Below, piece by piece: positions 3,695 to 64,000 of a DNA stretch of 64,000 nucleotides. The notes under the pieces are model-generated. The model was not told the origin of the DNA. It saw nothing but the letters and a program-made list of their open reading frames with translations, and made no database searches. Origin of the DNA: Bacilli bacterium (lineage in GTDB: Bacteria > Bacillota_I > Bacilli_A > RF39 > UBA660); NCBI GenBank assembly GCA_017450205.1, contig JAFSVF010000019.1, positions 23,381 through 87,380 on the forward strand. Reading direction: 5' to 3'. Position numbers and translations under genes: made by a program. How positions within the stretch are numbered: the first letter of the stretch is position 1; each line of letters begins with the position of its first letter.

Positions 3695-5056
3695 AATTTC
3701 TATATAATCTTTATAATTGTGTATTAATTCTTTTATAAATATAGATTTTTTATTATTAACTATGATGTATATGTAATTCTTTGTTCTTGTAAGTGCTACA
3801 TAGAATATTCTTCTTTCTTCTTCATAGGGAATATATTCTTTATCTTTTTGTATAAGTTTGAATATTTTTTCTTCTTTAATACCTGATGGAAAATCATCTG
3901 AATTAACTAAGATTACGTTTTCTTCTTCAAGTCCTTTTGATTTATGAATAGTCATTTTATTTTGAAATTCAATATTTTCTATATCCTTATTATTTCTTCC
4001 AAGTATTAATACATTTTCTTTTCCTGTTATTTCAAGAACCTCTTTTAAATTATAATTAATCATTATTTTTATGGGTTTATCTACATTCTTGTTTGATACT
4101 ATATTCTTTCTTAGTTGCTTTTTATTCTTCATTATAAAATTAGTAGATACGTGTATTAATTCATTACTATTTCGATATGTATATTTCAAATAATAGTACT
4201 TAGCATCTTCAAAGTATTTGTTAAAGTTTAGAAATATATTTAAGTTAGATCCTGAGAATCTATATATACTTTGAAAGTCATCTCCAACCACAAATAGATA
4301 TGCATTAGTATATTTAATAATTTCTTTTATGAGATTTAACCTAATAAGTGATGAATCTTGAAATTCATCTATTATTATATGTTTATATGGCAATTTAAAG
4401 TTTTTAACTTCTTTGGTTCCTTTGATAATGATATCGTCTAGATCAATTGAATTAGTACTTTTAAGTTCAATATTATATAAGTGATAAATATCTAAGATAA
4501 ATTTTAAGAGTATTTTAGTATTGAAGATAGATTTTTTATAGAATTTATATATATCTTTTTCTTCTAAATTATTACTTTTAGCTAATTTTATGAAAGTATA
4601 TATTTTCATTTTAAAATTTTCATATATTTTTGATTTGAATATTTTATTAATATCATTATCTGTGAAGAAAAGGTTCTTAAATAATCTATTTTTCTTTTTA
4701 TTAAAACTAATATAAGATTTAAAATACTCATCAATTATAAAGGGAAGAGTAGTGTCATTTGTGATTGAAAAGCTATTCTTTAAGAATTTTAAGCCTAGTT
4801 TATGAAATGTTAGTACTTCAATTTTATAGCCTAAATTTAATAATTTATTTTTTAGATTATTTACTGTTTCATTAGTAAATGATATACATAATATTTCATT
4901 TTCTTTTATATTTAATTCTTCAATTAAATATTTTACTTTTCCCTGAATTGTTAATGTTTTACCAGAACCAGCTCCTGCGATAACAAGAACTGATTTATTA
5001 GTAGATTTAATTGCTTCAACTTGTGTATTATCTAATTCAATATTATTTATCCTCAT
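3680..5056 (-). CDS. UvrD/Rep-like superfamily 1A DNA helicase, compact
   Basis: A 458-residue ATP-dependent helicase. Seen in order: Q-motif region LDNTQVEAI, Walker A GAGSGKT near residues 27-33, motif Ia SFTNET, Walker B IIIDEFQDS, motif III VVGDDFQSIYRFSG, motif IV TYRNS, motif V MTIHKSKGLE and motif VI VALTRT. It is much shorter than UvrD or PcrA (about 700 residues), mainly because the 1B and 2B accessory domains are reduced. It lies just downstream of addBA but is a separate transcript by the terminator at 5073. A role in repair or replication restart is inferred. Confidence 0.85.
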   Translation of the reverse strand: MRINNIELDNTQVEAIKSTNKSVLVIAGAGSGKTLTIQGKVKYLIEELNIKENEILCISFTNETVNNLKNKLLNLGYKIEVLTFHKLGLKFLKNSFSITNDTTLPFIIDEYFKSYISFNKKKNRLFKNLFFTDNDINKIFKSKIYENFKMKIYTFIKLAKSNNLEEKDIYKFYKKSIFNTKILLKFILDIYHLYNIELKSTNSIDLDDIIIKGTKEVKNFKLPYKHIIIDEFQDSSLIRLNLIKEIIKYTNAYLFVVGDDFQSIYRFSGSNLNIFLNFNKYFEDAKYYYLKYTYRNSNELIHVSTNFIMKNKKQLRKNIVSNKNVDKPIKIMINYNLKEVLEITGKENVLILGRNNKDIENIEFQNKMTIHKSKGLEEENVILVNSDDFPSGIKEEKIFKLIQKDKEYIPYEEERRIFYVALTRTKNYIYIIVNNKKSIFIKELIHNYKDYIEIKKKH

Positions 5057-5072
5057 ACTATTATATTTACCG

Positions 5073-5103
5073 AAAAAAATAAGGATTACTTAATGTAATC
5101 CTT
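5073..5103 (-). terminator. Rho-independent terminator of addBA
   Basis: A 9-bp perfect stem (5081-5089 with 5095-5103), a 5-base loop and a T run (minus strand) directly after addA; it overlaps the addA stop. Confidence 0.85.
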
Positions 5104-8100
5104 AAATTTTTTTAAAAAAGTTTTCTTTTATTGAATAAAGATATATATTTGTTGTTTTATTATATGTTTTTTCAATGTATTTTTTATAACCTTTTAATTG
5201 CTCATTGTACTCTTCGGAGTAAACATTATCAGTTTTATAGTCTATAATATCAAAATGATCATCATATTCTATTAGTAAATCTATAATACCATTTTTTTGA
5301 ATTCCATTATCTATATATGAAAATTCATGTTCTTTATAAGTAATTGCTGATGATATATTTTCTACTTCACGATTGTTTATAAATTTTTTTATTATTTCTT
5401 TATATTCATCACTTATATGTAATGTATCTAAGTTATTATTTTTAAAGTCATATACCTCAAAGCAATAATGTAGGTAATTACCATAATCTAACATTTCTTT
5501 TAATTCTTTAGTCATTAGATGTTTTTGATCTTTACTGAATTTACTATTTTGTAATACTTTATTATCGATTGATATATTATTAATAGTAATTTTATTACCA
5601 GTATTTTTAATTATTTTATTATAATCAGTATTATCCTTTAGATTATAATCTTTAGTTAATCCGATGGTATCTATATCAATGTCTTCTGTATATTTAAGAA
5701 GTTTATTTTTTTCTAATTCAAAGATATCGCTAAATGACTTACATTTTAGTATGTCTTCACTTGATACTACGGTTTTAGGTTTCATTTTATCTCTCCATGA
5801 ATTGATTACTATATATTGTTCCCTTGCTCTTGTAATAGCTACGTATAATAGTCTTATTTTTTCTGATACGTTTTCTTCTAGTTCAGTTTTTTCATATAAA
5901 GATTTAATAAAAGTTTTATCTAAATAATAATCATTTTTAAATGGAGTTATTATTCCATAATCTATACTTAAAGGTATTTTGTTTTGCTTTTTACCTTTAA
6001 ATGGACTATTTAAATATGGTAAATAGACAAATGGAAACTCTAATCCTTTTGATTTATGCATTGTCATTATTCTGACAGCGTTTTTGCTTGGAGTTTTAAT
6101 AGACATTTTAAAATCATCATCTGATTTAAGAATTCTATCAAAATAGTCATTTAGTGAATATATATCTAAACCAAATTTGTTTAAATCTTCAGCATTATTA
6201 ACAATATATTCTAGTTTAGTTGATCTGTTTTTAACATTACCAACAGTTATTGTTTTAGAAAATATATTGAATTTATTTATTAGTTCAATAATAATTTCTT
6301 TATTGGATAATCCTTCGATTTTTTCTGATATTTCTAGTAAGTCTTTATAAAGTGAAGTATCTTTATATTTCTTTTCATTAATTATTTTAAATATTTCTTC
6401 GTCATTAGTCTTATAGATATATGATCTTAATATAGACATAAATGAATGATTAAATATTGGACCATAGTTATTTTCTTTAATACAAATCAGAAGTGATATT
6501 AAATTTTTAAGAATATATACTTCATCATCTTCTTTTATTGATAGATCTTTTTCAATTGTTACAGGGATTTTATTAAATTCTAGTATTTTTTTTATAAGTT
6601 CAAAATTTGTTGATTTGTCTACTAGGATACAAAAATCTTTATAAGTAAGTGGATTTTTATTACCATCTCCATCTACTACTAGTATGTTTTGAGACATTTT
6701 TTCTTTAATATCCTTAGCAATGATAAAGGCTTCTACTTCATTATTTTTAAAATTAAATTTTTCTGGAAGAGAATAGTTGAGTATTCTCATGTTGTAATCA
6801 AAATCTTTTTGTTTATATTCATTATACGGTTCAAATTTAGCTTCCATTTGATGTTCTTCTTTAAATTTAGCACCACCAATATCATCATGCATAATGTCTG
6901 AGAAGAAACTATTAATGTTTGAAATTACTTCATCTCTAGATCTAAAGTTTTTAGTCATATCTATTTTTATTCCTAAGGCATCTTTAGATACTGATTCACT
7001 ATATTTTTCATATTTGTCATATTTTTCTTTAAATATGTATGGATTTGCATGTCTAAATCTATAGATTGATTGTTTTATGTCTCCAACCATATAAACATTA
7101 TTGTTAGAAATATGTTTAATAAACTCTTCTTGTATATCATTTGTATCTTGATATTCATCAATCATTATTTCTTTAGTTTTATTTTTAATTTCTTCACAAA
7201 CACTTTCATTGTTTTTTACTAGTTCAATAGCTTTAAGAGCTATATCTTGAAATTCATATGCATTATTTTGATTTTTAAATATAGTTATTTCTTTATCTAG
7301 TTGTTTAATTATGTTAATTAAGAATGAAACATTATTTTTTGTATATAGATATTCTGACATTAAATCAGAATCTGTTTTGCTATAAATTTCTTTGATTTTA
7401 TCTTCCAAAGTTTTAATTTCTTCTTTTAAATCATCTATATCATCATCGTCGAATATTTTTGTTTTACCACTATTTTGTGGTTTTCTTTCTTTAACTATTT
7501 CAATTATTTCTTCTGGATAAATAGCTGATTGAAGTCTTTCGATTCGTAATTGCATTTTTTCATGTGCTTTATCAGTTATAATATGAGAATTAAATTCTTC
7601 GTATAAAGGAATAATTTTTTCTTTTGCATCAAAAGCTATATTTCTATATTCTTCAATAAATTTATCTATCATATCTTTTGAGTAAAAATCAGATATATAG
7701 TTATCTAAGAATTCTTTTTTATCTTTTAAATTACATATACTTCGATATAGTTTAATTATTTCGTTAATTGTATTTGTATCGTCTTTATAACAAAAATCAT
7801 TTGTGAAGTTTATGAATTCATCAGTAGGATTTTCGTAAAATTTTAAGAAAATTTTATTTAAAATTTTTGTTAATTCAGTATTAACTATGTTTTCATCAAT
7901 TATTGTAAAATGTTTATCGATGTTTAATAGATAGTTATATTTTTTAACTATACTTTGAGCAAATGAGTCAAAAGTTGTTATATAAGATGATTCAACTAAA
8001 TCTAGTTCATCTTTATTTTCTTCAGTTACAGTTTCTTTAATAACTTTTCTAATTCTATCTTTCATTTCTTGAGCGGCAGCATTTGTAAATGTAAGTATTA

Positions 8101-52770: not shown

Positions 52771-52796
52771 AAGAACACTGTAGTGTTCTTTTTATA
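52764..52796. terminator. shared bidirectional terminator
   Basis: AAGAACACT-gt-AGTGTTCTT stem with T runs on both strands between converging genes. Confidence 0.85.
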
Positions 52797-53721
52797 ATTT
52801 CATTCCACAACCAGGACAAACTCCTCTAGCACCAATTAAACTTGCTCCGCATCTTGGACATTTTAATTCATCATTTTTAGTGTTTGTAGCATGTTCAATT
52901 TTTTCTTTACCACCAAATGCAATTGCTTCATTACTTGGTCCGACAGATTTGAAGTCTTGGATTTGTTTTGTAATTTTAGTTTCTTTTTCTTTAGAAACAG
53001 TTTCGTCTAAAGTATCTATTTCTTTATTATCAATTTTGTTTTCTAATATCGATGTATCTCTTTTTTCTTCCTCAAGAGTTTCGATTGTTTCACTTGTATT
53101 TGTGTAATCTGATAGATTTACAACTTCATCAATTGCTAAATCGTTATTGATATTTTGTTTTAATTTTTCGTTAATAGCGGGATCTGGCTTGAACTCTTTA
53201 ATTTCTTCAGGTTTTTCTTCAACTAATTCATCTTTGAAATTAAATTCATCCATTGGAACATTTGGTTTTATATCTATTATTTCATCTTTTTTAAATAAAT
53301 TTCCTATTTCAAATTCTTCTTTATTGTTTTTAAGTTTTTCTTCTAGTTTATCAATATCTGCCTGAGTTTTATAATAGTTCTTTTCTATTTCGAGATATTT
53401 ATCACGTACTTCTGAAAAAGCAATATAAGGAACAAAGATTATTGGAAATAATATAGCTAAATACCAAGTATATCTTTTAAGATCAAATTGTTTTGCTAAA
53501 TTATATGGAGATACTATAAATGCAATGATATTTAATGGTGGTACAATTGCTACCCATTTTGGTATTCTTATAAATGAAAAATATGTCCATATATCATATA
53601 TAGGTATTAGTGATTCATAACCTTTATGTCTTTCTTTAATGAATATCTTATATAAAGACACTTTAAAGACTATTAGATAAATAATTAAATATATTATAAA
53701 TATCTTTAAATATATATTCAT
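52792..53721 (-). CDS. membrane protein with DUF5684-like N-terminus and zinc ribbon
   Basis: A 309-residue protein: a first helix (IYLKIFIIYLIIYLIVF), then GYESLIPIYDIWTY and two more helices (to about 105), as in DUF5684-like membrane proteins; a coiled/acidic linker from 110 to 285; and a C-terminal zinc ribbon CPRCGASLIGARGVCPGCG. The zinc ribbon would lie in the cytoplasm. Role unknown. Confidence 0.7.
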   Translation of the reverse strand: MNIYLKIFIIYLIIYLIVFKVSLYKIFIKERHKGYESLIPIYDIWTYFSFIRIPKWVAIVPPLNIIAFIVSPYNLAKQFDLKRYTWYLAILFPIIFVPYIAFSEVRDKYLEIEKNYYKTQADIDKLEEKLKNNKEEFEIGNLFKKDEIIDIKPNVPMDEFNFKDELVEEKPEEIKEFKPDPAINEKLKQNINNDLAIDEVVNLSDYTNTSETIETLEEEKRDTSILENKIDNKEIDTLDETVSKEKETKITKQIQDFKSVGPSNEAIAFGGKEKIEHATNTKNDELKCPRCGASLIGARGVCPGCGMKL

Positions 53722-53773: not shown

Positions 53774-53797
53774 TAAAAAAACTAGACTTTGTCTAGC
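53774..53797 (-). terminator. terminator (minus strand)
   Basis: CTAGAC / GTCTAG stem with T7 on the minus strand, at the end of the 103-residue protein. Confidence 0.65.
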
Positions 53798-54108
53798 TAG
53801 AATTGAATATTACCAGTTTGAACTTGTGGTTCTTCAATTTTTGTTTCTTCTTTTTGTTCTTGAGCTTGAATATCTGTATTCTCTTCTTGAATTTCTTGAA
53901 CTTCAAATTTTACTGGGTCTTCATCTAAAACTATAATTTTAGATTTTTTAAGTTCTTCAGTTTGAGAAACTTCCATTTGAGTTGAAACTTCTTGCATGAT
54001 TGGAGCCACTACTTCTTGATTATATACTACTGAATTTTCTTGTATATTATTTATTGTATTATCTACTTGGTTTTGTATTAAATTATCATTATTATATTCT
54101 TGATTCAT
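53797..54108 (-). CDS. Gln/Glu-rich disordered protein
   Basis: A 103-residue protein with almost no hydrophobic clusters, rich in Gln, Glu, Asn and Val (QNQVDNTINNIQENS), predicted disordered. GGAGG at 7 bases supports that it is translated. Divergent from the essC gene, so a link to the T7SS is possible but unproven. No known family. Confidence 0.55.
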   Translation of the reverse strand: MNQEYNNDNLIQNQVDNTINNIQENSVVYNQEVVAPIMQEVSTQMEVSQTEELKKSKIIVLDEDPVKFEVQEIQEENTDIQAQEQKEETKIEEPQVQTGNIQF

Positions 54109-54229: not shown

Positions 54230-57200
54230 ATGGTAGTTGCTGTTATTAGTAAAAACATGCTTTTTAAAGTTTTTTTATCTGATACTCCTGATGGTGATTA
54301 TCAAATAAGAGACTATTTTAACGATGTTATTGGTAATATAGTTTATGTTGATAATAAATTACAATTTAATACTAATCATAATTTTGAAATACAAACTGAT
54401 AAAGGCATTGTTTCAAGTTGTATTGTTTCAATAGGTTCAGTATTTAATATTAAAAATATTATAGATCAATCTATTATTACTGTTTATGTATATTCTTCAA
54501 ACATTGAAAATCCAATAGAGGTTAAACCAAAGAAAAATAAAATTGTTATTGGAAAAGCTAGTGATTGCGATATTTGTTATAATTCACCATATTTAAAAAA
54601 TCATGCATATTCTTTATTAAATGATAAAGGTATGTGGTTTTTAGATACGATTGATGATTATGTTTATGTAAATGATAGGCTTGTTAAAAGAAAAAGAGTA
54701 GATCATGGTGATGTAATTTTTGTTGGTGGTTTAAAAGTATTTTGTTTAGGAGATACAGTTGTAGTTAGTGGTTTATTAAACAATTACACTGTTCAATTAA
54801 ATAACAGTACTTTTGAACAAAAACAACCAATTACACAAGAGATTCGTCAAGGTGTTTTAGAGGTTGAAGATGATAAAGAGGTATTTGGTGATGATAAATT
54901 CCAAAGATCTCCTAGATTTAGATCTATTTTAAAAGAAAGAAATGTTGAATTTGCACCTCCTCCAAATGTTAATCCTCCAAAGGTTATGCCTGCTATATTA
55001 ACTCTTGGTCCTCAATTAACTATGTTTATTACATCTGGATTTACTATGTTTACTAGTTTATCTAGTGTATTCGCAGGACAATCAACTTTAGCTCAAGTTA
55101 TGCCTTCATTATTGATGTCTGTAATTATGACAATAAGTGGATTATTATGGCCAGCATTAACTAGAAGATATCAAAAAAAAGAAAATGCTAAAATGAGAAT
55201 CTTTAATACTAAAAATTATAGAAAGTATTTAGTAACTAAAGAAAAAGAAATAAATGAAATTATCGCAGAGCAAAAACAAATATTAATTGAAAATAATGTT
55301 TCGCTTGAAGAGTGCCAACAAATAATCTTTAGAAGAAAGAGAAATTTATGGGAAAAGACCTTGTTTGATGATGACTTTTTACAAGTTAGGGTAGGAACTG
55401 GTATTGTTCCACCAAGGATTAATTTTAATTATGATGCTAAGGGATTTGGAACTGATGAAAATGCTTTAGAGATGGAACTTCATGATTTAATTAAGAGAGT
55501 CTCTTATGTTGATGATGTTCCTGTTAATACTTCATTAGTTCAAAATAGAATTACAGCTATTATTGGTAATCCAGGTGATTTAAGATTATTCTTTGAAAGT
55601 ATTCTTTTACAAATTGCTACTTTCCATTTATATAGTGAATTAAAAATCATTATTTTTACTGATAATACTAAATATCATGATTGGGATTATTTAAAATATC
55701 TTCCTCATTGTTGGGATAATTCTCATACTACTCGTTTTATTTGTAAAACAATTGATGAGAAAAAGAGATTATCTTCTTATATTGAAAATGTTATTAAAGA
55801 AAGAAAAGCTGTTTTAAAAGATAAAGGTGAAGAAGATGATGGTACAACTTATACTAACTTCTTACCATATTTCTTAGTAATAACTGATAATATTAATGAT
55901 GCAAAACAATTCGAAGGTATTAATCAAATATTAAATACTAATGTTAATTTAGGATTCTCTTTATTAATAAAGAATAATAGAATTGCCAATTTACCTAGTC
56001 AATGTTCTACATTTATTAATATTGATAAAGATAATTCAGGATTATTTAAAAATGATCTTGATGAAAATAATCAATTACATTTTACTGCTGAATTAAATAC
56101 TACTATTAATGTTGAAGATTGTTTTAGAGAACTTGCAAATATTTATGTAGATGTTCCATTAGATAAACATGAACTTCCTAAGAGTGTTGGATTCTTAGCT
56201 ATGTATGATGTAGGTAATGTTGAACAATTAAACTCTGGTGATAGATGGGTTCAAAATAATCCAGTTAATAGTTTAGCTGTTCCAGTAGGTATTGATCAAA
56301 GCGGTAATATATTTAATTTTGATATTCATGAAAATGCATATGGACCTCACGGTTTAGTTGCTGGTACTACTGGTTCTGGTAAATCGGAATGGTTAATCAC
56401 ATATATCTTATCTTTATGTGTTAACTTCTCACCAGAAGAAGTACAATTTGTACTTATAGACTATAAGGGTGGTGGACTTGCTGGTTCATTTGATAATAAA
56501 GAAACTGGTATGCATTTACCCCACTTAGTCGGTACAATTACAAATCTTGATAAATCTGAGATAAGAAGAAGTTTAGCATCTCTAGAAGCCGAATCTAAAC
56601 GTAGACAAAGAATGTTTAATGAAGCTCGTGAAAAGTTAAATGATTCTTCGATGAATATTTATAAGTATCAACAATATTATAGAAAAGGTATGTTAGATGA
56701 ACCTTTATCACATTTATTCATAATAAGTGATGAGTTTGCAGAATTAAAAGCTCAAGAACCTGAATTCTTGGAGCAATTAGTTTCAATTGCTCGTATTGGA
56801 CGTTCTTTAGGAATTCATTTAATTCTTGCAACTCAAAAACCTGCTGGTGTAGTTGATGAACAAATTAAATCCAACTCTAAATTTAAGATTTGTTTAAGAG
56901 TTCAAGATAAAGCCGATTCAAAAGATATGATTAATGTTGATGATGCTGCATACTTACATCAAACTGGTGCTTTCTATATGTTAGTAGGTTTAGATGAAGT
57001 ATTTACTTTAGGTCAATCTGCTTATGCTGGTGGTTTATATAAACCTACAAAGATAGTTAAAAAAGAAGTAGATACAAGTGTTACTATCTTAGGACAAACT
57101 GGTGAAGAAATAGATTCTGCAGATATGATTGTTACTGATAATAATGAAATTAATCAAGATGTTCATGGTGAAGAATTATTAAATATTATTCTTTATGTGT

Positions 57201-58858
57201 CAAATATTTCTAATCAAAAAACTATGAAGATTAGAAAGTTATGGTTAGAAGCTATTCCTGAAATTATTTATGTAGATAATTTAAAGAAAAAATATAATAC
57301 TACAAGAACACCATTTTTTATTAATCCTATAATTGGTGAATACGATAATCCTTTTGAACAAAAACAATCTGTATTACAACTTGAATTGAATAAGGGTAAT
57401 ACTTATATTACTGGTGTATCTGGTTCTGGTAAGGAACAATTGCTTCAAACTATGATTTATTCAATTATTACCACTTTTACACCACAAGAAGTTAATATTT
57501 ATATTTGCGACTTTGGTGCTGAAACTTTAGCAATGTTTAAAGATTCTCCACATGTTGGTAGTGTTACTTACATGAGTGAAGTAGAAAAGATTAAGAATAC
57601 ATTTAGATTTGCTAGAAAAATCTTTGCTGAAAGAAAACGTAAATATCGTGAATTTGGTGGTAGTTATGATTCACATATTAAATATTCTAAAGAAAAAGAT
57701 CCAATTATGTTATTCATTATTAACTCAATTGAAAATCTAAAAGAAAATATGGAAGATGAGTTTGATGGATTAAATTCTTTATATAAAGAATGTGCTAAAT
57801 ATGGAATTATATTTGTAGTTACTTCGGTTGAACAAAATGTTTTAAGAGGAAAGGCTATGGAAGCTTTCCCTCAAGTATTAACAACTAAGATTGCAAATGA
57901 TGATTATGCAAATGTATTAGGTAGTGGTGCTAAAGGAGTTATTCCTAAAAACTTAAAAGGTAGAGGATTACTTGCTATTAACAAAATTATTTATGAATAT
58001 CAAACAGCATCTATATATGAAGCTGATAAGTTACAAGCAATTATTAAGAATGTTAATACAACATTAAATAATTATTATAAGACTAAAGCTATTCCATTAC
58101 CTATGGTTCCTAAGAGTATTACTGTTAATCATATTCCAATGGATAATATTTCTCTTAATAATATATGTGTTGGATACAGTAAAGCATCTATTGAACCAAT
58201 TTATATGGACTTACAAGCAAACTTTGGTACTTTAATACTTGCTCCTAAAAAGTTTAATCTATCAGAGTTTTGTAAGACATTCTATGCAGAACTAGATACA
58301 TTAGTAACTGATAGTAATAAAGTATATATATTTGATGCTAATGAAACAATGAAGGGTCAAAGATTTAAAAATATTACTTATGTTGATTCTTCAGAAATTA
58401 AGAATACATTTAATAATTTAAAGATTTTTGTTAATCAAGAATATGAGAAGTATTCTGCTATGACTGATAAGACTGCATACAATCCTGGTAAGAGAAGTAT
58501 TATTGTATTACATGAAACTTCTGCTTGTTTTAATATGATTGGAGATGCTACTGAAGATTTCTCTGAAATGGTTGATAAGATTAGAGAATTACAATTATTC
58601 GATTTTGTTATTGCTGATATTGCTGCTGATTATAAAGAAGTATTTAGAGATAAAGGCTTAACTAAGATAATTATGGATTCTCATGCTGTATTAATTGGTA
58701 ATACATATGATACTCAAATGTTTGTAGACTTAAACTCTAGAGATATTAGACAAAAAGAAGCTTTACCAGAAAACGAAGGTTATGTTGTTAAGAATGGTAA
58801 TGGATACTTGTCTCAAGTATTAGAATTTACTGAAAAGGAGGATGATGATGAAATATAA
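54230..58858 (+). CDS. essC: EssC-type type VII secretion ATPase
   Basis: A 1542-residue FtsK/SpoIIIE-family motor of the Firmicutes T7SS. An FHA-like domain is at about 100-180 (NKIVIGKASDCDICYNSPY), two transmembrane helices near 255-315 (PQLTMFITSGF, LLMSVIMTISGLLW), then three ATPase modules. Module 1 is canonical (Walker A GTTGSGKS 712-719, Walker B IISDEFAE near 834, LATQKPAGVV). Module 2 has GVSGSGKEQ and no acidic Walker B (LFIINSIENL); module 3 lacks a Walker A (GTLILAPKKF). This degeneration of modules 2 and 3 fits the family. AAGGAGG precedes the ATG. Confidence 0.93.
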   Translation: MVVAVISKNMLFKVFLSDTPDGDYQIRDYFNDVIGNIVYVDNKLQFNTNHNFEIQTDKGIVSSCIVSIGSVFNIKNIIDQSIITVYVYSSNIENPIEVKPKKNKIVIGKASDCDICYNSPYLKNHAYSLLNDKGMWFLDTIDDYVYVNDRLVKRKRVDHGDVIFVGGLKVFCLGDTVVVSGLLNNYTVQLNNSTFEQKQPITQEIRQGVLEVEDDKEVFGDDKFQRSPRFRSILKERNVEFAPPPNVNPPKVMPAILTLGPQLTMFITSGFTMFTSLSSVFAGQSTLAQVMPSLLMSVIMTISGLLWPALTRRYQKKENAKMRIFNTKNYRKYLVTKEKEINEIIAEQKQILIENNVSLEECQQIIFRRKRNLWEKTLFDDDFLQVRVGTGIVPPRINFNYDAKGFGTDENALEMELHDLIKRVSYVDDVPVNTSLVQNRITAIIGNPGDLRLFFESILLQIATFHLYSELKIIIFTDNTKYHDWDYLKYLPHCWDNSHTTRFICKTIDEKKRLSSYIENVIKERKAVLKDKGEEDDGTTYTNFLPYFLVITDNINDAKQFEGINQILNTNVNLGFSLLIKNNRIANLPSQCSTFINIDKDNSGLFKNDLDENNQLHFTAELNTTINVEDCFRELANIYVDVPLDKHELPKSVGFLAMYDVGNVEQLNSGDRWVQNNPVNSLAVPVGIDQSGNIFNFDIHENAYGPHGLVAGTTGSGKSEWLITYILSLCVNFSPEEVQFVLIDYKGGGLAGSFDNKETGMHLPHLVGTITNLDKSEIRRSLASLEAESKRRQRMFNEAREKLNDSSMNIYKYQQYYRKGMLDEPLSHLFIISDEFAELKAQEPEFLEQLVSIARIGRSLGIHLILATQKPAGVVDEQIKSNSKFKICLRVQDKADSKDMINVDDAAYLHQTGAFYMLVGLDEVFTLGQSAYAGGLYKPTKIVKKEVDTSVTILGQTGEEIDSADMIVTDNNEINQDVHGEELLNIILYVSNISNQKTMKIRKLWLEAIPEIIYVDNLKKKYNTTRTPFFINPIIGEYDNPFEQKQSVLQLELNKGNTYITGVSGSGKEQLLQTMIYSIITTFTPQEVNIYICDFGAETLAMFKDSPHVGSVTYMSEVEKIKNTFRFARKIFAERKRKYREFGGSYDSHIKYSKEKDPIMLFIINSIENLKENMEDEFDGLNSLYKECAKYGIIFVVTSVEQNVLRGKAMEAFPQVLTTKIANDDYANVLGSGAKGVIPKNLKGRGLLAINKIIYEYQTASIYEADKLQAIIKNVNTTLNNYYKTKAIPLPMVPKSITVNHIPMDNISLNNICVGYSKASIEPIYMDLQANFGTLILAPKKFNLSEFCKTFYAELDTLVTDSNKVYIFDANETMKGQRFKNITYVDSSEIKNTFNNLKIFVNQEYEKYSAMTDKTAYNPGKRSIIVLHETSACFNMIGDATEDFSEMVDKIRELQLFDFVIADIAADYKEVFRDKGLTKIIMDSHAVLIGNTYDTQMFVDLNSRDIRQKEALPENEGYVVKNGNGYLSQVLEFTEKEDDDEI

Positions 58859-59102
58859 ACTAATATGTGAAGTTTCATTTCCTCAATTTGATATAAGTAT
58901 GGATGTTACAATACCATACAATAAATCAATTTATTATGTATGTGAAATGCTTAATAAATTAATAATTGATGATATTATGCCTACTTATAAACCTAAAAAG
59001 AATAGTATTTTAATTAATAAGAGAACTGGTGAAGTATATGATATGAATGTATTTGTTCATCAATCTTCTATTAAAAATGGAACTAAACTTGCTTTTTACT
59101 AA
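58848..59102 (+). CDS. yukD: YukD/EsaB-like ubiquitin-fold T7SS protein
   Basis: An 84-residue protein with a beta-grasp, ubiquitin-like outline (YKLICEVSFPQFDISMDVTI, LNKLIID, LAFY end), found next to essC as EsaB/YukD is. The start is inside essC; of three overlapping ATG codons, 58848 has the best spacing from AAGGAGG. The order essC-yukD is reversed from the usual yukD-essB-essC order. No EssB or EsaA follows. Confidence 0.75.
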   Translation: MKYKLICEVSFPQFDISMDVTIPYNKSIYYVCEMLNKLIIDDIMPTYKPKKNSILINKRTGEVYDMNVFVHQSSIKNGTKLAFY

Positions 59103-59105
59103 AAT

Positions 59106-59142
59106 AAACCCTAGTTTGATTATTTCAAATTAGGGTTTTATA
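59106..59142 (+). terminator. strong terminator after essC-yukD
   Basis: A 14-bp stem (59106-59119 with 59125-59138, one G-T pair) and T run. It ends the ATPase transcript and separates it from the small substrates. Confidence 0.88.
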
Positions 59143-59226
59143 ATGTCTACTTTATTGTATTTTATTTATTATTATATAATTCTTAGTGTTTTTATGTTAT
59201 TATATTTATGATAGGAGAAGGTAAAG

Positions 59227-59538
59227 ATGGACGTAAATCAAAAGGAATACGATTACGATGAAATAATTAAATTTACTGGTGCAGGCGGTGAATTAGATCA
59301 AGTTTTATCTAAGTTACAAAGTCGTTTAAAAAAACTTAGAGAAAAAATAAATGAATGTGAACCATTATTTCATGGTAAAGGAAATACTAGTTCAATTTAT
59401 AAATGCTATAAAGAATTATATGATAAGATAGGAACTGATAGTGCTTCTGGTACAATGTGGTTTAACACTAAGAATAGTTATGATTTAATTAACTTAATGA
59501 ACACTAATGCGGTTTCAGATAAGAATAAAGATTTTTAG
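59227..59538 (+). CDS. T7SS small helical protein, family A (A1)
   Basis: A 103-residue helical-hairpin protein with YDYDEIIKFTGAGGELDQVL at 8-27, a turn motif FHGKG at 48-52, and SSIYKCYKELYDKIG after it. The aromatic-His-Gly in the turn takes the place of WxG in WXG100 proteins. It shares this pattern with A2 and A3. No signal peptide. A T7SS partner or substrate role is inferred from structure and position. Confidence 0.7.
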   Translation: MDVNQKEYDYDEIIKFTGAGGELDQVLSKLQSRLKKLREKINECEPLFHGKGNTSSIYKCYKELYDKIGTDSASGTMWFNTKNSYDLINLMNTNAVSDKNKDF

Positions 59539-59651
59539 TATGTAATAATTTTGTAAACAATTTTATTTATGTTTACTCTTATTGCGAATAATTATATAAT
59601 AAGTATAAGATATGGTAGAAAGATATCTATGTCGAAAGGAGAAAATGAAAT

Positions 59652-60053
59652 ATGAATGAAGTAGCTTATTATGATAAAGGTGAAGCAAGTTTAGATAAAC
59701 AAGCTAAAACATTCCAAAATTTTACTTATGATAATCAAAGTAATGGAGGAGTTCTTAATAAATTAAGTGAAATCGAAAAGAAAATTAATGATATTAAGAA
59801 TGATATTCAAACTTTATCAGGAGATTACAATACATTAGTTAATAAGTATGAAAAATTCTCTAACTATAAAAGTGTAATGAATAAAATCATTACTACTATG
59901 ACTAATAATGTTGATGCTATTAACAGGAGTTATGGTAATGTAGTAAAAACTGCTACTCAAGCTATTAATGAACACATGTCTACTGACTCTACATTAATGT
60001 CAGATTTAGATCAATTAAATCGTTTATTAGCTAACGGTTCTAAAACCAATTAA
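59652..60053 (+). CDS. T7SS small helical protein, family B (B1)
   Basis: A 133-residue helical protein with NEVAYYDKGEASLDKQAKT and NFTYDNQSNGGVLNKLSEI near the N-terminus and ending TLMSDLDQLNRLLANG. It matches the first 130 residues of the long protein at 61363 and the protein at 63433. It is followed by A2 after 22 bases. GAAAGGAG precedes it. Likely a secretion partner or the simple form of the B domain; not canonical WXG100. Confidence 0.7.
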   Translation: MNEVAYYDKGEASLDKQAKTFQNFTYDNQSNGGVLNKLSEIEKKINDIKNDIQTLSGDYNTLVNKYEKFSNYKSVMNKIITTMTNNVDAINRSYGNVVKTATQAINEHMSTDSTLMSDLDQLNRLLANGSKTN

Positions 60054-60075
60054 TTATTGAAAGGAGATTATTATT

Positions 60076-60390
60076 ATGGATCAAACTCAAAAGTCTTATG
60101 AATACGATGAAGTCATCACATTTACTCAAAGTGGTGGACAAATGGATAGTACTTTAAAACAATTACAAACTCATTTAAAGGAATTAAGAAACCTAGTAAA
60201 TGAATGTGAGCCATTATATCATGGTAAAGGAACTACTAGTCCAATATATAATCAATATAAAACATTATATGCTAATATTGGTAACCCTAATCAAGGATTG
60301 TGGAATCAAGTATATGGAGCAGTTCAATTACAAAACCAAATTTACAATAATGCTCAAAATGATAAAAGAAAAGATCAACAAGGTTATTAA
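60076..60390 (+). CDS. T7SS small helical protein, family A (A2)
   Basis: A 104-residue paralogue of A1: YEYDEVITFTQSGGQMDSTL at 8-27, turn YHGKG at 48-52, SPIYNQYKTLYANIG after it. It starts just after B1 with GGAG, so A and B are made together. The C-terminus is Asn/Gln/Lys rich (NDKRKDQQGY). Confidence 0.72.
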   Translation: MDQTQKSYEYDEVITFTQSGGQMDSTLKQLQTHLKELRNLVNECEPLYHGKGTTSPIYNQYKTLYANIGNPNQGLWNQVYGAVQLQNQIYNNAQNDKRKDQQGY

Positions 60391-60411
60391 AAAAAGTCAT
60401 AGACTTTTTTT
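60390..60411 (+). terminator. terminator after A2
   Basis: AAAAAGTC-ata-GACTTTTT stem overlapping the T run. Confidence 0.6.
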
Positions 60412-60422
60412 ATTTTGTTTTT

Positions 60423-60449
60423 AAAAAAAAAACCACATTACGTGGTTTT
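60423..60449 (-). terminator. terminator of A3 (minus strand)
   Basis: AAACCAC / GTGGTTT stem followed on the minus strand by a T10 run. Confidence 0.75.
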
Positions 60450-60451
60450 AT

Positions 60452-60832
60452 TTAATTATTGTTATTGTTTTCTTCTTGCCTTCTTCTTTCTTCTTCAGCA
60501 ATCCTTCTTTGTTCTTCTTCCCAATCGGCTTTATCTCTTTCTGCATTACTATAAAGCATATCAGTTTTATATACTATATTTTGAATTGAAGACCAAACTC
60601 CCGAGTTATTCCAATAATTATAATTACTTGCGCTCCCTATATTGTTATATAATGCATCATACATTTTATATATTGATGATTTATATCCAATACCATGGTA
60701 TGCTTCTTCTAATTCTTTAATTAATCTTTGTAGTTTTTCAATATCATCTTGTAAATCATCTAATGAATTACTTAAATAACTTCCTGATGAACATGCTGCC
60801 ATTACAGCATCGAAATTATATTCCTTTGCCAT
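60452..60832 (-). CDS. T7SS small helical protein, family A (A3), with charged tail
   Basis: A 126-residue family-A protein on the opposite strand: YNFDAVMAACSSGSYLSNSL, turn YHGIG at 45-49, KSSIYKMYDALYNNIG, then a charged Glu/Arg/Gln tail (RRIAEEERRRQEE) ending in five Asn. The tail is longer than in A1 and A2. It starts 2 bases after the end of B2 and has GAGGA upstream. Confidence 0.72.
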   Translation of the reverse strand: MAKEYNFDAVMAACSSGSYLSNSLDDLQDDIEKLQRLIKELEEAYHGIGYKSSIYKMYDALYNNIGSASNYNYWNNSGVWSSIQNIVYKTDMLYSNAERDKADWEEEQRRIAEEERRRQEENNNNN

Positions 60833-60834
60833 GC

Positions 60835-61224
60835 TTATCCTCTTTTCATCATTTGATTTATTGTTTCTAAATCGTTCATTAATTTAGCATCTTTTTTAGT
60901 TAATGTTGTAACTGATTGTTTTATGTTATCCATGATAGTTTTATTAACTTCTGCTAAATTATTACATCTAAAGTTTAGTATTTGTTTCATTTGACTAATA
61001 TATTCATCGTAGTCTGTTACATTACCATAATAACTTGATAGTTTATTTAATCCTCTTGAAACATTACTTGTATCATCTTGAATTCTTCTAGATACACTGT
61101 TTATTTGAGTTATTAAATTAAATATTTTGTTATTTAAGTTGTCATATTTAAATTCATCCCAAGATTCTGCTTCGTAATTCTTTGATGCAGCACCTTCATG
61201 CCATGATAGACTACTGTTTCTCAT
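60835..61224 (-). CDS. T7SS small helical protein, family B (B2)
   Basis: A 129-residue divergent family-B protein: NYEAESWDEFKYDNLNNKIFNLI near the N-terminus matches the FxYDN...NK block of B1, and DAKLMNDLETINQMM matches its end. ATG at 61224 has AGGTGA upstream. It precedes A3 on the same strand, giving a B-then-A pair like B1-A2. Confidence 0.68.
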   Translation of the reverse strand: MRNSSLSWHEGAASKNYEAESWDEFKYDNLNNKIFNLITQINSVSRRIQDDTSNVSRGLNKLSSYYGNVTDYDEYISQMKQILNFRCNNLAEVNKTIMDNIKQSVTTLTKKDAKLMNDLETINQMMKRG

Positions 61225-61309
61225 TCTAATCACCTATCTTAATTATATATAGTAATTATTATAAAGTCTATAAATCTTATTATATTTGCTACAGTTAATG
61301 TAAATACTA

Positions 61310-61338
61310 TTGTATAGATTTTATTATTTTGTTATATT
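61310..61338 (+). promoter_or_regulatory. promoter of the long family-B gene
   Basis: TTGTAT, 17-base spacer, TGT-TATATT. Confidence 0.65.
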
Positions 61339-61362
61339 ATAAATAATTGAGGTGGATAGATA

Positions 61363-62724
61363 ATGAACGAAGTAGCATATTATGATAAGACTGAATCTAA
61401 TTTAGAAAAAAGTCCTAAAACATTTAATGATTTTACTTATGATAATGAGGAAAATGGTGGTGTTTTAAATAAATTTAGTGAGATTGGTGATAAAATAAAA
61501 TCAATTAAAACTGATATTTTTAATTTAAATACTGAATATGGTAATATTATAAAAAAATATGAAGCATTTTCTAATTTTGAAACTACCATGAATTCTATTG
61601 TTAATACAATGTCAACTCGTATTGATAATATACATACTTGTTATAATAATATTTTAAGTACTGCTCAACAAGCTGTAAAAGATCATGTGGCGTCTGATAA
61701 AACTTTAATTGATGATTTAGATTCTATTAACGCTTTATTAGCTGGTAAGACAGGTCTTGAAGCTGGTTTAAATAATACTGGTAATAACGCTCCTTTATCT
61801 AATGAGGCAATTAGTGATTTAGAGTTTAAAAATTCTCATGGTGGGGTTTCACAAGAAGAATGGAATCGTATGTCAGATTCACAAAAGCAAGAAATCTTAA
61901 AAGAACAAGCTGCTCAACAAGGTGGAAAGATTACTGATCAAAATGAAACTGCTGTTGATGATAAATATTCAATGTCTAGTGATTTAGATAAAGTTGCTGA
62001 TGAAATTATCCAAGGTAAATATGGTACTGGTGAAGATAGATATGCTGAACTTGAAAAACAAGGTTACAATTTAAGAGATAGATATGATGAAAATGGTAAC
62101 TTAGTTGAAAGAGGAGTTCAAGATATTGTTAATGAAAAAATGAATGGTACTTATGATCCTAATAAGATTCCAACTAACACATCTAATGAAGCAGGTTATA
62201 GAAGTACTTCTGGTTCAAATGGTCAAAATTTAACTGATAATGGATATCCAAGTTCAACTGAAGGATATGAGTCTCAAAAGGCTGCAGCTCAAGCTGCTGT
62301 AAATGCAGCGCAAGAAAGAGGAAAAGCGCAAACTGAATATTATCAAAAACAACAAGCTCAAGCTGCTGTAAATGCATATCAAGAAAGAGGAAAAGCACAA
62401 ACTGAGTATTATCAAAATCAACAATCCCAAGCTGCTGTAAATGCATATCAAGAAAGAGGAAAAGCACAAACTGAGTATTATCAAAGTCAACAAGCCCAAG
62501 CTGCTGTAAATGCAGCTCAAGAAAGAGGAAAAGCACAAACTGAGTATTATCAAAAACAACAAGCTCAAGCTGCAAGCACATCAACAGCGGGAGGAAATGC
62601 AATTCCTACTCAACAAGAGTTAGTTGATGGTAATGCTGCTATTTCATCTGGTAATAGTAGTACGCCAACTACATCTAGTAATGGATCTGGAGTTTATAAT
62701 TTGCCTTCTGATCCAGCTGAATAG
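61363..62724 (+). CDS. long family-B T7SS cargo candidate with CW_7-like motif and tandem repeats (B3)
   Basis: A 453-residue protein. Residues 1-125 match B1 (NEVAYYDKTESNLEKSPKT, FTYDNEENGGVLNKFSEI, LIDDLDSINALLAG). Residues 211-257 contain VADEIIQGKYGTGEDRYAEL and VQDIVNEKMNG, which resemble the CW_7 (Cpl-7 lysozyme) cell-wall-binding motif with an insert. Residues 309-400 are four 23-residue repeats. The end is Ser/Gly/Thr rich with no enzyme domain seen. A T7SS-exported wall-binding protein is inferred; it lacks a Sec signal peptide. Confidence 0.72.
   Translation: MNEVAYYDKTESNLEKSPKTFNDFTYDNEENGGVLNKFSEIGDKIKSIKTDIFNLNTEYGNIIKKYEAFSNFETTMNSIVNTMSTRIDNIHTCYNNILSTAQQAVKDHVASDKTLIDDLDSINALLAGKTGLEAGLNNTGNNAPLSNEAISDLEFKNSHGGVSQEEWNRMSDSQKQEILKEQAAQQGGKITDQNETAVDDKYSMSSDLDKVADEIIQGKYGTGEDRYAELEKQGYNLRDRYDENGNLVERGVQDIVNEKMNGTYDPNKIPTNTSNEAGYRSTSGSNGQNLTDNGYPSSTEGYESQKAAAQAAVNAAQERGKAQTEYYQKQQAQAAVNAYQERGKAQTEYYQNQQSQAAVNAYQERGKAQTEYYQSQQAQAAVNAAQERGKAQTEYYQKQQAQAASTSTAGGNAIPTQQELVDGNAAISSGNSSTPTTSSNGSGVYNLPSDPAE
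62287..62577 (+). repeat. four tandem 69-bp coding repeats plus partial fifth
   Basis: Four 69-base units (62287, 62356, 62425, 62494) encode AQAAVNA[AY]QERGKAQTEYYQ[KNS]QQ with few changes, then a partial unit. The units keep frame, so the number can change without breaking the gene. Confidence 0.9.
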
Positions 62725-62730
62725 TTTAAC

Positions 62731-62763
62731 TAACACGAAATATTATTTATTTCGTGTTTTTAC
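62731..62763 (+). terminator. terminator after B3
   Basis: AACACGAAAT / ATTTCGTGTT 10-bp stem with T run. Confidence 0.85.
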
Positions 62764-62849
62764 TTTGGTGTTATATATTAAAAATATTTAGTACTTTTTA
62801 AGTTTAGATTTATTACTATGATATAATCTATAATATAAAAGGTGAAGGT

Positions 62850-63343
62850 ATGACAATTGCATATAATATACAAAAATTAAAATTTGAAAAGAAAGCTACT
62901 GTATATGAAAATTTTACATATGATACTGAATCTAAAGGTGGCTGTTAAAATAAATTTATCGAATTAAGTAAAGCGATATATGATGTAAAAAATAGATATA
63001 AGTGGAATTAATGGAGAAAAATTTTTAGAAATGCTAATGTAATTGTTGGGGAAGTAGTAAATCCTAATGGTAATACAAGTGATCCGATTGGAAAGCATAT
63101 GAATAATGAAGAATTTAATGGATTTGCTGGTGTTCCTCCATCAAAAATACATAAAAACACATATATTACCGCTGAAGATGGTTAAAAATTGCTTGTTGGA
63201 GGTATTAATCCTGAAATTAAAGAAATAAATCCTAATTTTTTATTTGTGAAATAATAAGTAATATAGTAAAAAATTTTACTAATCATAATGTTGCTGTAAG
63301 TGGTGGTGCAATTGGTGGTGAGATTACTCCTCATAGTTATTAA
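62850..63343 (+). pseudogene. decayed family-B T7SS gene (B4)
   Basis: The 5' end (TIAYNIQKLKFEKKATVYENFTYD) matches the gene at 63433, but a TTA-to-TAA change gives a stop at 62946 where the intact copy has GGCLNKF. More stops follow (63009, 63183, about 63252), and the middle helices are missing. Two later parts still read as protein: NVIVGEVVNPNGNTSDPIGKH and AVSGGAIGGEITPHSY. The start has AAGGTGAAGG. The remnant downstream tail differs from B5, so it once carried another C-terminal domain. Confidence 0.75.
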
Positions 63344-63432
63344 AAAAATAAATAGACTATTTACAGTTCATTTTTTGTTTATATTTTAAATATTATTAAT
63401 AATTGATATAATTACAATAGGAGGCTGGTAAT

Positions 63433-64000
63433 ATGGCAATTACATATAATTCACAAGAAGCAAAATTAGAAAAGAAACCTACCACTTATCAAGGTTTTAC
63501 ATATGATACTGAAACTGATGGTGGTTGTTTAAATAAATTTGAAGAAGTTAGTAAACTTATATTAGAGGTTTCTAACGATGTTGAAGAATTAGGTAATAAA
63601 TATACTTCATTACAAGCTAAGTATGATAAGTTTACGGACTTTAATGATAAAATGAATTCTAATAAGAATTCTTTAAGAAATTCTGTTGATAATATAAAAA
63701 AGTGTTTTGATAATATTATTCAAAATCTTAATAAACAAGTTACTGCATTACAAGAAACCGATGCTTCGTTAATGACTGATTTAGAATCTATTGCTAAACT
63801 TATTTCTAATAGTAAAGATCAAGATAAAACTATTAGTGATTCAAGAAATAAAAATGATGGTAGCAGTTCAAGTTCAGGTAAGAGTGATGAAGATAAAGCA
63901 AAAGCAGTTAATGATGTAATAAGTGGTAAATATGGTACTGGTGATGAAAGAAAAGAAGCGTTAAGAAAAGCTGGTTTTGATCCTAATGAAATTCAAAAGA
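63433..64000 (+). CDS. family-B T7SS protein with CW_7-like motif, runs off the window (B5)
   Basis: At least 189 residues, 3' end missing. N-terminal B domain (AITYNSQEAKLEKKPTTYQGFTYDTE, GGCLNKFEEVSK), conserved end of domain SLMTDLESIAKLIS, a Ser-rich linker (GSSSSSGKS) and then AVNDVISGKYGTGDERKEALRKAGFD, a clear CW_7/Cpl-7-type wall-binding motif. GGAGG at 63420-63424 precedes the ATG. Likely exported by the T7SS encoded upstream. Confidence 0.75.
   Translation, partial: MAITYNSQEAKLEKKPTTYQGFTYDTETDGGCLNKFEEVSKLILEVSNDVEELGNKYTSLQAKYDKFTDFNDKMNSNKNSLRNSVDNIKKCFDNIIQNLNKQVTALQETDASLMTDLESIAKLISNSKDQDKTISDSRNKNDGSSSSSGKSDEDKAKAVNDVISGKYGTGDERKEALRKAGFDPNEIQK

Follow-up and report, generated by a model that had tools for sequence, protein, structure and literature searches.

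The EssC island and its A and B genes

At the end of a contig from a Bacilli bacterium of the order RF39 lies an island of type VII secretion system (T7SS) genes, in which the EssC ATPase is accompanied by two families of small helical proteins, here called A and B. The window is the whole stretch of DNA analysed, 64,000 nucleotides long (assembly GCA_017450205.1, contig JAFSVF010000019.1, positions 23,381 to 87,380). An initial annotation of this stretch had described a minimal T7SS island in which essC and yukD are followed by A1, by B1-A2, by B2-A3 on the opposite strand and by long B genes. All of its coordinates were recovered, and the gene order reads EssC, YukD-like protein, A1, B1-A2, then B2-A3 on the minus strand, B3, a decayed B gene and B4. 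The island starts before position 54230, where it had been taken to begin, with a DUF5684 gene and an LDEDP gene on the minus strand upstream of essC. These conserved upstream genes, the CW_7 repeats, the decayed B remnant and the contig end are additions to the initial description. Features are listed below by window position; other loci and genomes carry our own L and G numbers.

52792-53721, minus strand: membrane protein with DUF5684 and a C-terminal zinc ribbon (PF18936 35.8 bits, cut-off 27.4; zinc-ribbon models below cut-off)
53797-54108, minus strand: small LDEDP-motif protein whose C-terminal tail is conserved, oriented divergently to essC; no Pfam family
54230-58858, plus strand: EssC ATPase, 1542 amino acids (TIGR03928 910 bits, cut-off 778; FtsK_SpoIIIE 2.1e-48; FHA below cut-off)
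58842-59102, plus strand: YukD/EsaB-like small protein (by position, length and an alignment of 12 EssC-linked proteins, 3 of which weakly match PF08817)
59227-59538, plus strand: A1, A-family hairpin protein (50% identity to A2)
59652-60053, plus strand: B1, stand-alone B-domain protein (B alignment; two-helix hairpin model, predicted local distance difference test (pLDDT) 75)
60076-60390, plus strand: A2, A-family protein with a YHG turn (model pLDDT 89; first PDB match EsxA, 2vrz)
60452-60832, minus strand: A3, A-family protein with a charged tail (own clade with the L015 and L016 copies, 100/100)
60835-61233, minus strand: B2, stand-alone B-domain protein (own clade with the L015 and L016 copies, 100/100)
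61363-62724, plus strand: B3, B domain with a CW_7 repeat and Q-rich repeats, likely cargo (CW_7 32.8 bits, cut-off 25)
62850-63340 (right end approximate), plus strand: decayed B-type gene with several in-frame stops (three-frame reading; B-profile match at 62850-62996, 1.5e-9, with a stop)
63433-63999, plus strand: B4, B domain with CW_7, cut by the contig end, likely cargo (CW_7 42.7 bits)

B1 lies 22 bases upstream of A2, and 2 bases separate B2 from the downstream A3. The B domain of B3 is 51% identical to B1. The contig (87,380 bases) stops at window position 64000, inside B4. The YukD-like protein of the window matches no family; the best PF08817 E-value among the 12 aligned proteins is 0.0087, that of the window is not among the three that match, and its label as a putative YukD is weak. 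The ratio of nonsynonymous to synonymous changes (dN/dS) shows coding-type evolution of the island genes. In comparison with the closest relative, the genome of L014 (G288), EssC has a ratio of 0.07, A2 of 0.08, the DUF5684 gene of 0.12, the YukD-like gene of 0.15, A1 of 0.21 and B1, B3 and B4 of 0.34-0.47, and the fast-evolving small LDEDP gene reaches 0.64; in comparison with L016, A3 has 0.18 and B2 0.42.

Structure models returned the helical hairpins that the initial annotation expected of both families. The A proteins (104 amino acids) are confidently predicted as helical hairpins, and the best solved-structure match of the A2 model in Foldseek is Staphylococcus aureus EsxA (2vrz, probability 0.98, E 0.4). 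The motif [FY]HG, noticed earlier at the place where WXG100 proteins carry W-x-G, occupies the predicted turn in 23/23 A sequences (20 Y, 3 F), while W-x-G stands at the turn in none of the 23 A and 23 B aligned sequences. Residues H49, G50, W76, N92 and A93 are invariant in all 23 A sequences and D96 is present in 22, as is an NAxxD motif near the C-terminus. Classification of A as a WXG100-like hairpin is supported by this predicted fold. Family searches had been proposed as a further check, and for A they brought no PF06013 match: the family is absent from the full match lists (E up to 1) of A1, A2 and A3 of the window, and is not among the best 25 of the 36 families listed for all 23 A sequences.

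Family B had been defined by FxYD near residues 25-30, and F24 and Y26 are indeed present in 23/23 sequences and D27 in 22/23. F24, Y26, Y66, D112, L115, D118 and L119 are invariant, and B1 is modelled as a two-helix hairpin. The B domain occurs both in short proteins (B1 and B2) and in long ones that also carry CW_7, NlpC/P60 or M15 domains. Matches to the YwqH-like family, which we take to be Lap4, stay below cut-off (B4 0.022, B2 0.057). LXG is not among the Pfam matches listed for the 23 B sequences. Eight of them weakly match the Lap3-like DUF5344 (best E 1.5e-4), amid many generic coiled-coil families; DUF5344 is the Lap3 family (PMC10765036; this and the other publications cited by PMC number were available to us in part, and our statements apply to those parts).

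All three A matches in the own genome fall inside the island, as do all five B matches, one of which is the decayed remnant. Among 288 sampled genomes of the order, the A profile was found in three: the own genome, G101 and G165. The last match (L011) was rejected, as it lies in a coiled-coil stretch of a 399-amino-acid protein that reads as a secreted M23-type peptidase (M23 assigned by eye). A scan of 84,980 species genomes yielded three more islands, L014 (Bacilli bacterium isolate RUI228), L015 and L016. In these four genomes A and B follow essC and the YukD-like gene at the same position, and the window, L015 and L016 each have the full set of A1, B1-A2 and B2-A3. No B2 turned up in the genome of L014, where the expected site would lie in the gap between two contigs. 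In midpoint-rooted trees the B2 and A3 proteins, three of each, form matching clades (100/100) of the same genomes, with stems of 3.9 and 2.7 changes per column, respectively, and they are adjacent in each genome. Since joint divergence is expected of cognate partners, the matching clades and the adjacency support B2 and A3 as a probable cognate pair, in line with the A/B pairing proposed initially. The number of long B genes varies between loci while A1, B1-A2 and B2-A3 recur, which suggests a core A/B set with variable cargo.

Of nine chosen genomes, six gave B-profile matches: strong ones in the own genome and three relatives, and weaker ones in G234 (2.6e-5) and G090 (3.5e-4). The G090 match falls within a 661-amino-acid protein that has membrane stretches, and we take it for chance. 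At 1e-3 the B profile matched nothing in G024, G196 and G101. Divergent B-A pairs turned up at two EssC loci when the open reading frames (ORFs) of the loci were searched: L017 of G101 (A 6.8e-12, B 7.5e-5) and L050 of G234 (B 5.6e-7, A by eye). An A/B-like pair in G196 (L049) was recognised by eye only. Searches of protein sets returned 2 proteins for the B domain of the L015 NlpC protein (one of them itself), 6 for B1 and 13 for A2.

It is very improbable, in our judgement, that A and B have nothing to do with secretion and are coiled-coil proteins placed beside essC by chance. The Pfam matches of B are mostly to generic coiled-coil models, as such proteins would give, yet four genomes show the families at the same place behind essC and the YukD-like gene, and the wall domains described below, which come without a Sec-like signal, need another export route.

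T7SS components not detected in the genome

The initial annotation had found no WXG100, EsaA, EssA or EssB in the window, and the same holds beyond it: none was detected in the whole own assembly (1.41 Mb, 28 contigs, 92% complete), where WXG100 (PF06013) has 0 matches. EssB exceeded its cut-off in 0/288 genomes, with weak matches in 11, EssA in 0/12, with weak matches in two, and EsaA in 0/11, with one weak match; none of the weak matches is in the own genome. As the assembly is 92% complete, absence of EsaA, EssA and EssB is not proven. Among 14 control genomes each model exceeded its cut-off in one, which is Bacillus subtilis for EssB and EssA; for EsaA (of four genomes) and WXG100 the single genome is not specified, with B. 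subtilis among the candidates.

EssC exceeds its cut-off in 137 of the 288 sampled genomes. WXG100 matches at E up to 1e-3 occur in 90 of the 288, namely in 84 of the 137 EssC genomes (53 have none) and in six of the other 151; in this cross-count EssC presence was defined by a best E below 1e-200, which gives the same 137 genomes. The absence of T7SS parts is thus wider than the window island, and the label "minimal" does not hold as a trait of this island in particular.

These counts bear on a simpler explanation, in which A and B are divergent WXG100 and Lap proteins of a standard T7SSb, and EsaA, EssA and EssB are either too diverged to be recognised or encoded in sequence that the assembly lacks. 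The EsxA-like model of A, the EssC match to the T7SSb model, the weak DUF5344 matches of B and the 92% completeness of the assembly would all agree with it. We nevertheless hold it to be unlikely, as EssB does not reach its cut-off in any of the 288 genomes though 137 have EssC, and neither do EsaA and EssA in their smaller samples.

Wall domains on long B proteins and neighbouring genes

The long B set comprises the 17 proteins shown by the B profile in the own genome, G288, G289 and G290 (window 2, L015 6, L016 3, L095 3, L096 1, L098 2), with the remnant excluded. All 17 carry F-x-Y-D. In twelve, a Pfam wall domain exceeds its cut-off: ten have CW_7, one of them with NlpC/P60 as well (L015, 1.4e-14), and two more have Peptidase_M15_4 (L015, 1.6e-19; L098, 1.4e-20). 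The M15 region of L015 gave two weak peptidase matches against the PDB, the better at 0.0012. Weak Hydrolase_2 matches were obtained for L015 13673-14650 (0.0063 with the C-terminus scanned alone, none in the whole-protein scan at 0.01) and for an L095 CW_7 protein that starts like B4 (0.014). A strongly hydrophobic N-terminal stretch was found in 0/17 (maximum 0.91, against 2.53 in one Sec-type control). Wall domains without a Sec-like signal need another route, and essC is adjacent for most of these genes; on this, the chief argument for export, the long B proteins likely leave by the T7SS route. The earlier proposal that they are cargo gains from the wall-acting domains at their C-termini.

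Other C-termini were less informative. Those of L016 15264-16322 and 16349-17245 have no Pfam match and no NCBIfam match at 1e-3, apart from a weak YuiC match (0.02) in the former, and the QSQAG-type C-terminus of L015 and L095 belongs to no convincing family. Matches of L015 14751-16448 to PRANC and EnY2 over cut-off, and of its C-terminal piece to DUF6697, fall in a repeat region and were taken as chance. Two B-domain proteins off the essC contig, L096:4205-5674 and L098:8919-10322, have similar C-terminal regions that match no recognised domain.

What such cargo would do can be read in more than one way. Tandem long B genes with differing C-termini and one decayed copy resemble polymorphic effector arrays, and the LXG cargo treated in PMC10765036 consists of toxins. 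The long B proteins could accordingly be LXG-like effectors of an ordinary T7SS, cutting competitors' walls, with an arms race behind the C-terminal diversity. We give this reading a low probability. No small gene that might provide cognate immunity was seen next to the long B genes: L015 (13658-20089) and L095 (65-4229) hold no intervening non-overlapping ORF of at least 70 amino acids among those listed (shorter genes were not sought), and proteins such as B3, with CW_7 and Q-rich repeats and no enzyme, are unlike toxins.

Alternatively, the long B enzymes may be accessory proteins that open the wall, like S. aureus EssH, and the short A/B pairs the true cargo. T7SSb secretion requires EssH, which hydrolyses the wall (PMC13059805), and here too most hydrolases are linked to essC. 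This also strikes us as rather unlikely: a locus can hold several different hydrolases (in L015, NlpC/P60, M15 and a weak SleB-like one), more than one opening needs, and in G290 two long B genes, one with M15, lie on a contig other than that of essC.

Past position 64000, where the initial annotation suggested looking for EsaA and EssB, the contig ends. Contig C6 (L102) of the own genome opens with the last 107 bases of the window, which are identical, and the overlap lies inside a CW_7 stretch (L102 1-595). C6 holds the tail of a QSQAG-type open frame, followed by genes for an LDEDP-repeat protein, for a 495-amino-acid HExxH protein and for what reads by eye as a topoisomerase-like protein; L095 has the same order. 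The contig break thus lies in a CW_7 stretch common to the neighbouring L095 B genes.

Homologues of these accessory genes recur at other loci. ORFs from 33 sources were searched, and the counts include the members from which the profiles were built. DUF5684/zinc-ribbon homologues are found at 8 EssC loci (window, L014/L097, L015, L016, L017, L048, L049, L051), HExxH homologues in 8 sources (L095, L015, L016, L017, L048, L050, L051, L065) and small LDEDP homologues, which show weak kinship to LDEDP-repeat proteins, at 5 EssC loci (window, L014/L097, L015, L016, L017). None of the three profiles matched in L052 or L054, two loci with W-x-G proteins. The HExxH membrane-type protein of about 495 amino acids lies at or near EssC loci (L015:10330-11841, L016:10377-11873, L017:4764-6239, L095:5258-6745, L102:1613-3100) and has no Pfam family in L015 and L095, where it was scanned. 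LDEDP-type repeat proteins, weakly kin to the window gene at 53797-54108, are encoded at L095:4267-5142, L015:11958-12728 and L102:631-1497.

EssC loci of the family that carry other modules partly point the same way as the proposed wall cargo. Seven large proteins from these loci were scanned: one has CHAP (L048), one Hydrolase_2 (L051, G271, 1.8e-8), one DUF87 and four nothing. At 8291-11905 of L048 (G024, same genus as the window genome), W-x-G small proteins stand at the EssC locus, together with a 547-amino-acid W-x-G protein fused to a C-terminal CHAP (5.7e-10). L049 (G196, also same genus) encodes at 4017-5640 a protein with weak LysM (below cut-off), whose C-terminus resembles the adjacent 108-amino-acid A-like protein by eye; placed next to a B-like gene, it is possibly a cargo of reverse order.

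Proposed export module and comparison with known systems

We consider it likely that the island encodes a divergent T7SS that lacks EsaA, EssA and EssB, uses an A/B targeting module of its own and exports B cargo that acts on the wall; the interpretation offered in the initial annotation is, as a whole, partly supported. We infer export, pairing and enzyme activity from the sequences and models. B-domain proteins with cell-wall domains would leave through EssC, with the A proteins as their predicted partners. Each B hairpin would pack against an A hairpin (B1 with A2, B2 with A3), and EssC would read the resulting bundle. In A, the [FY]HG turn and the C-terminal NAxxD may take over the roles that WxG and YxxxD/FxxxD have in other systems. 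The exported enzymes would trim or bind the producer's own wall and perhaps also open a path for the system. The DUF5684/zinc-ribbon, LDEDP and HExxH membrane-type proteins could be envelope parts, a guess prompted by their co-occurrence. More tentatively, this may be an undescribed T7SS subtype in which the A/B module replaces EsxA and which, without EsaA, EssA and EssB, serves as a dedicated exporter of B-addressed peptidoglycan enzymes and wall-binding proteins and not as a toxin gun; we regard this as possible, at somewhat less than even chances. The rival explanations overlap in part with this proposal.

Several observations weigh against the proposed A/B export module. The canonical Yxxx[DE]/FxxxD lies within the last 40 residues of only 6/23 A proteins, Foldseek returned nothing at E ≤0.001 for A or B, and VIA scores of A tie with those of unrelated helical proteins. 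The B model reaches pLDDT 75 only and its fold matches are generic. Homology of A and B to WXG100, tried by profile-profile comparison with 39 W-x-G proteins of neighbouring genomes, gave probabilities of 3% for A and 44% for B; the reversed WXG100 profile scores 18.5 with A (real 18.4) and 32.2 with B (real 22.2), while 0/100 column shuffles and 1/100 block shuffles reach either score. Because the reversed-profile control is as strong or stronger, we make no claim of homology to WXG100. PF06013, moreover, misses divergent WXG100 proteins, as G271 has a W-x-G protein (L051) and yet is among the 53 EssC genomes without a match, which makes this model an imperfect detector. On the cargo side, 4/17 long B proteins have no recognised wall domain, no enzyme domain was recognised on B3 or the visible part of B4 in the own genome, and only residues 15-50 of the SleB-like C-terminus found in the nearest relative (L095) had a match in the own genome. 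Finally, A and B are not genus-wide: the same-genus G024 and G196 show neither profile, and their EssC loci carry other small proteins.

A locus without recognisable EsxA, EsaA, EssA and EssB raises the question of the smallest working EssC machine. The B domain, found alone and on wall enzymes, is a candidate export tag, and it hints that type VII secretion may have a housekeeping role in a lineage with EssC over cut-off in 137/288 sampled genomes. In the literature available to us we found no report of a link between CW_7 and T7SS or of a fusion of LXG to a hydrolase domain, although PMC3482391 may name T7SS-linked wall peptidases. For RF39 one review was found, unrelated to the question of T7SS wall enzymes.

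The T7SSb of Bacillota resembles the window in its TIGR03928-type EssC, the putative YukD-like gene directly downstream and the small helical proteins beside it. It differs in that the genome of the window has no EsaA, EssA, EssB or WXG100 matches and has extra DUF5684/zinc-ribbon, LDEDP and HExxH genes. In the PE/PE-PGRS proteins and their PPE partners, one N-terminal domain is common to short and long secreted proteins and is joined by a helical partner. A and B are similar in both respects but come from a different phylum, and the likeness is one of description. PE-PPE is mentioned in PMC9600955. According to a 2026 paper (PMC13355648), EsxA, a WXG100 protein, is secreted by T7SSb systems universally, and LXG toxin export in Streptococcus intermedius requires it.

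Types T7SSc-T7SSj (Garrett, Higginson and Palmer 2024, PMC11217815) share with the window, by description, an EssC core without EsaA/EssB and, in all but T7SSd, a YukD-like protein. All but T7SSi are assigned a TsxA of the WXG100 family; T7SSi, like the window, has no clear one. The parts of that source at hand describe no A/B-type pair, DUF5684 partner or wall-enzyme cargo. Kinase, phosphatase and a separate FHA partner, frequent in these types, were not noticed among the listed ORFs of the window, for which no profile search was made.

The initial annotation had likened the A-B neighbours to the Lap1/Lap2 partners of LXG toxins. The adjacency of A to B stands, and in LXG systems, too, a large cargo bears an N-terminal helical targeting domain with WXG100-like partners adjacent (PMC9600955, PMC10765036). 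The adaptor role does not, which makes the analogy a loose one: rather than a separate adaptor that serves an LXG toxin, B is the cargo's own N-terminal domain. B also differs by its FxYD, by the lack of LXG among its listed Pfam matches, by wall-acting cargo domains and by occurring alone or fused. Lap1 needs its FxxxD for LXG export (PMC9600955), where family A has NAxxD near its end instead. S. aureus EssH (PMC13059805) is a peptidoglycan hydrolase tied to T7SS, as the long B enzymes are predicted to be; it is a single CHAP enzyme, in contrast to a family fused to a T7SS-linked domain.

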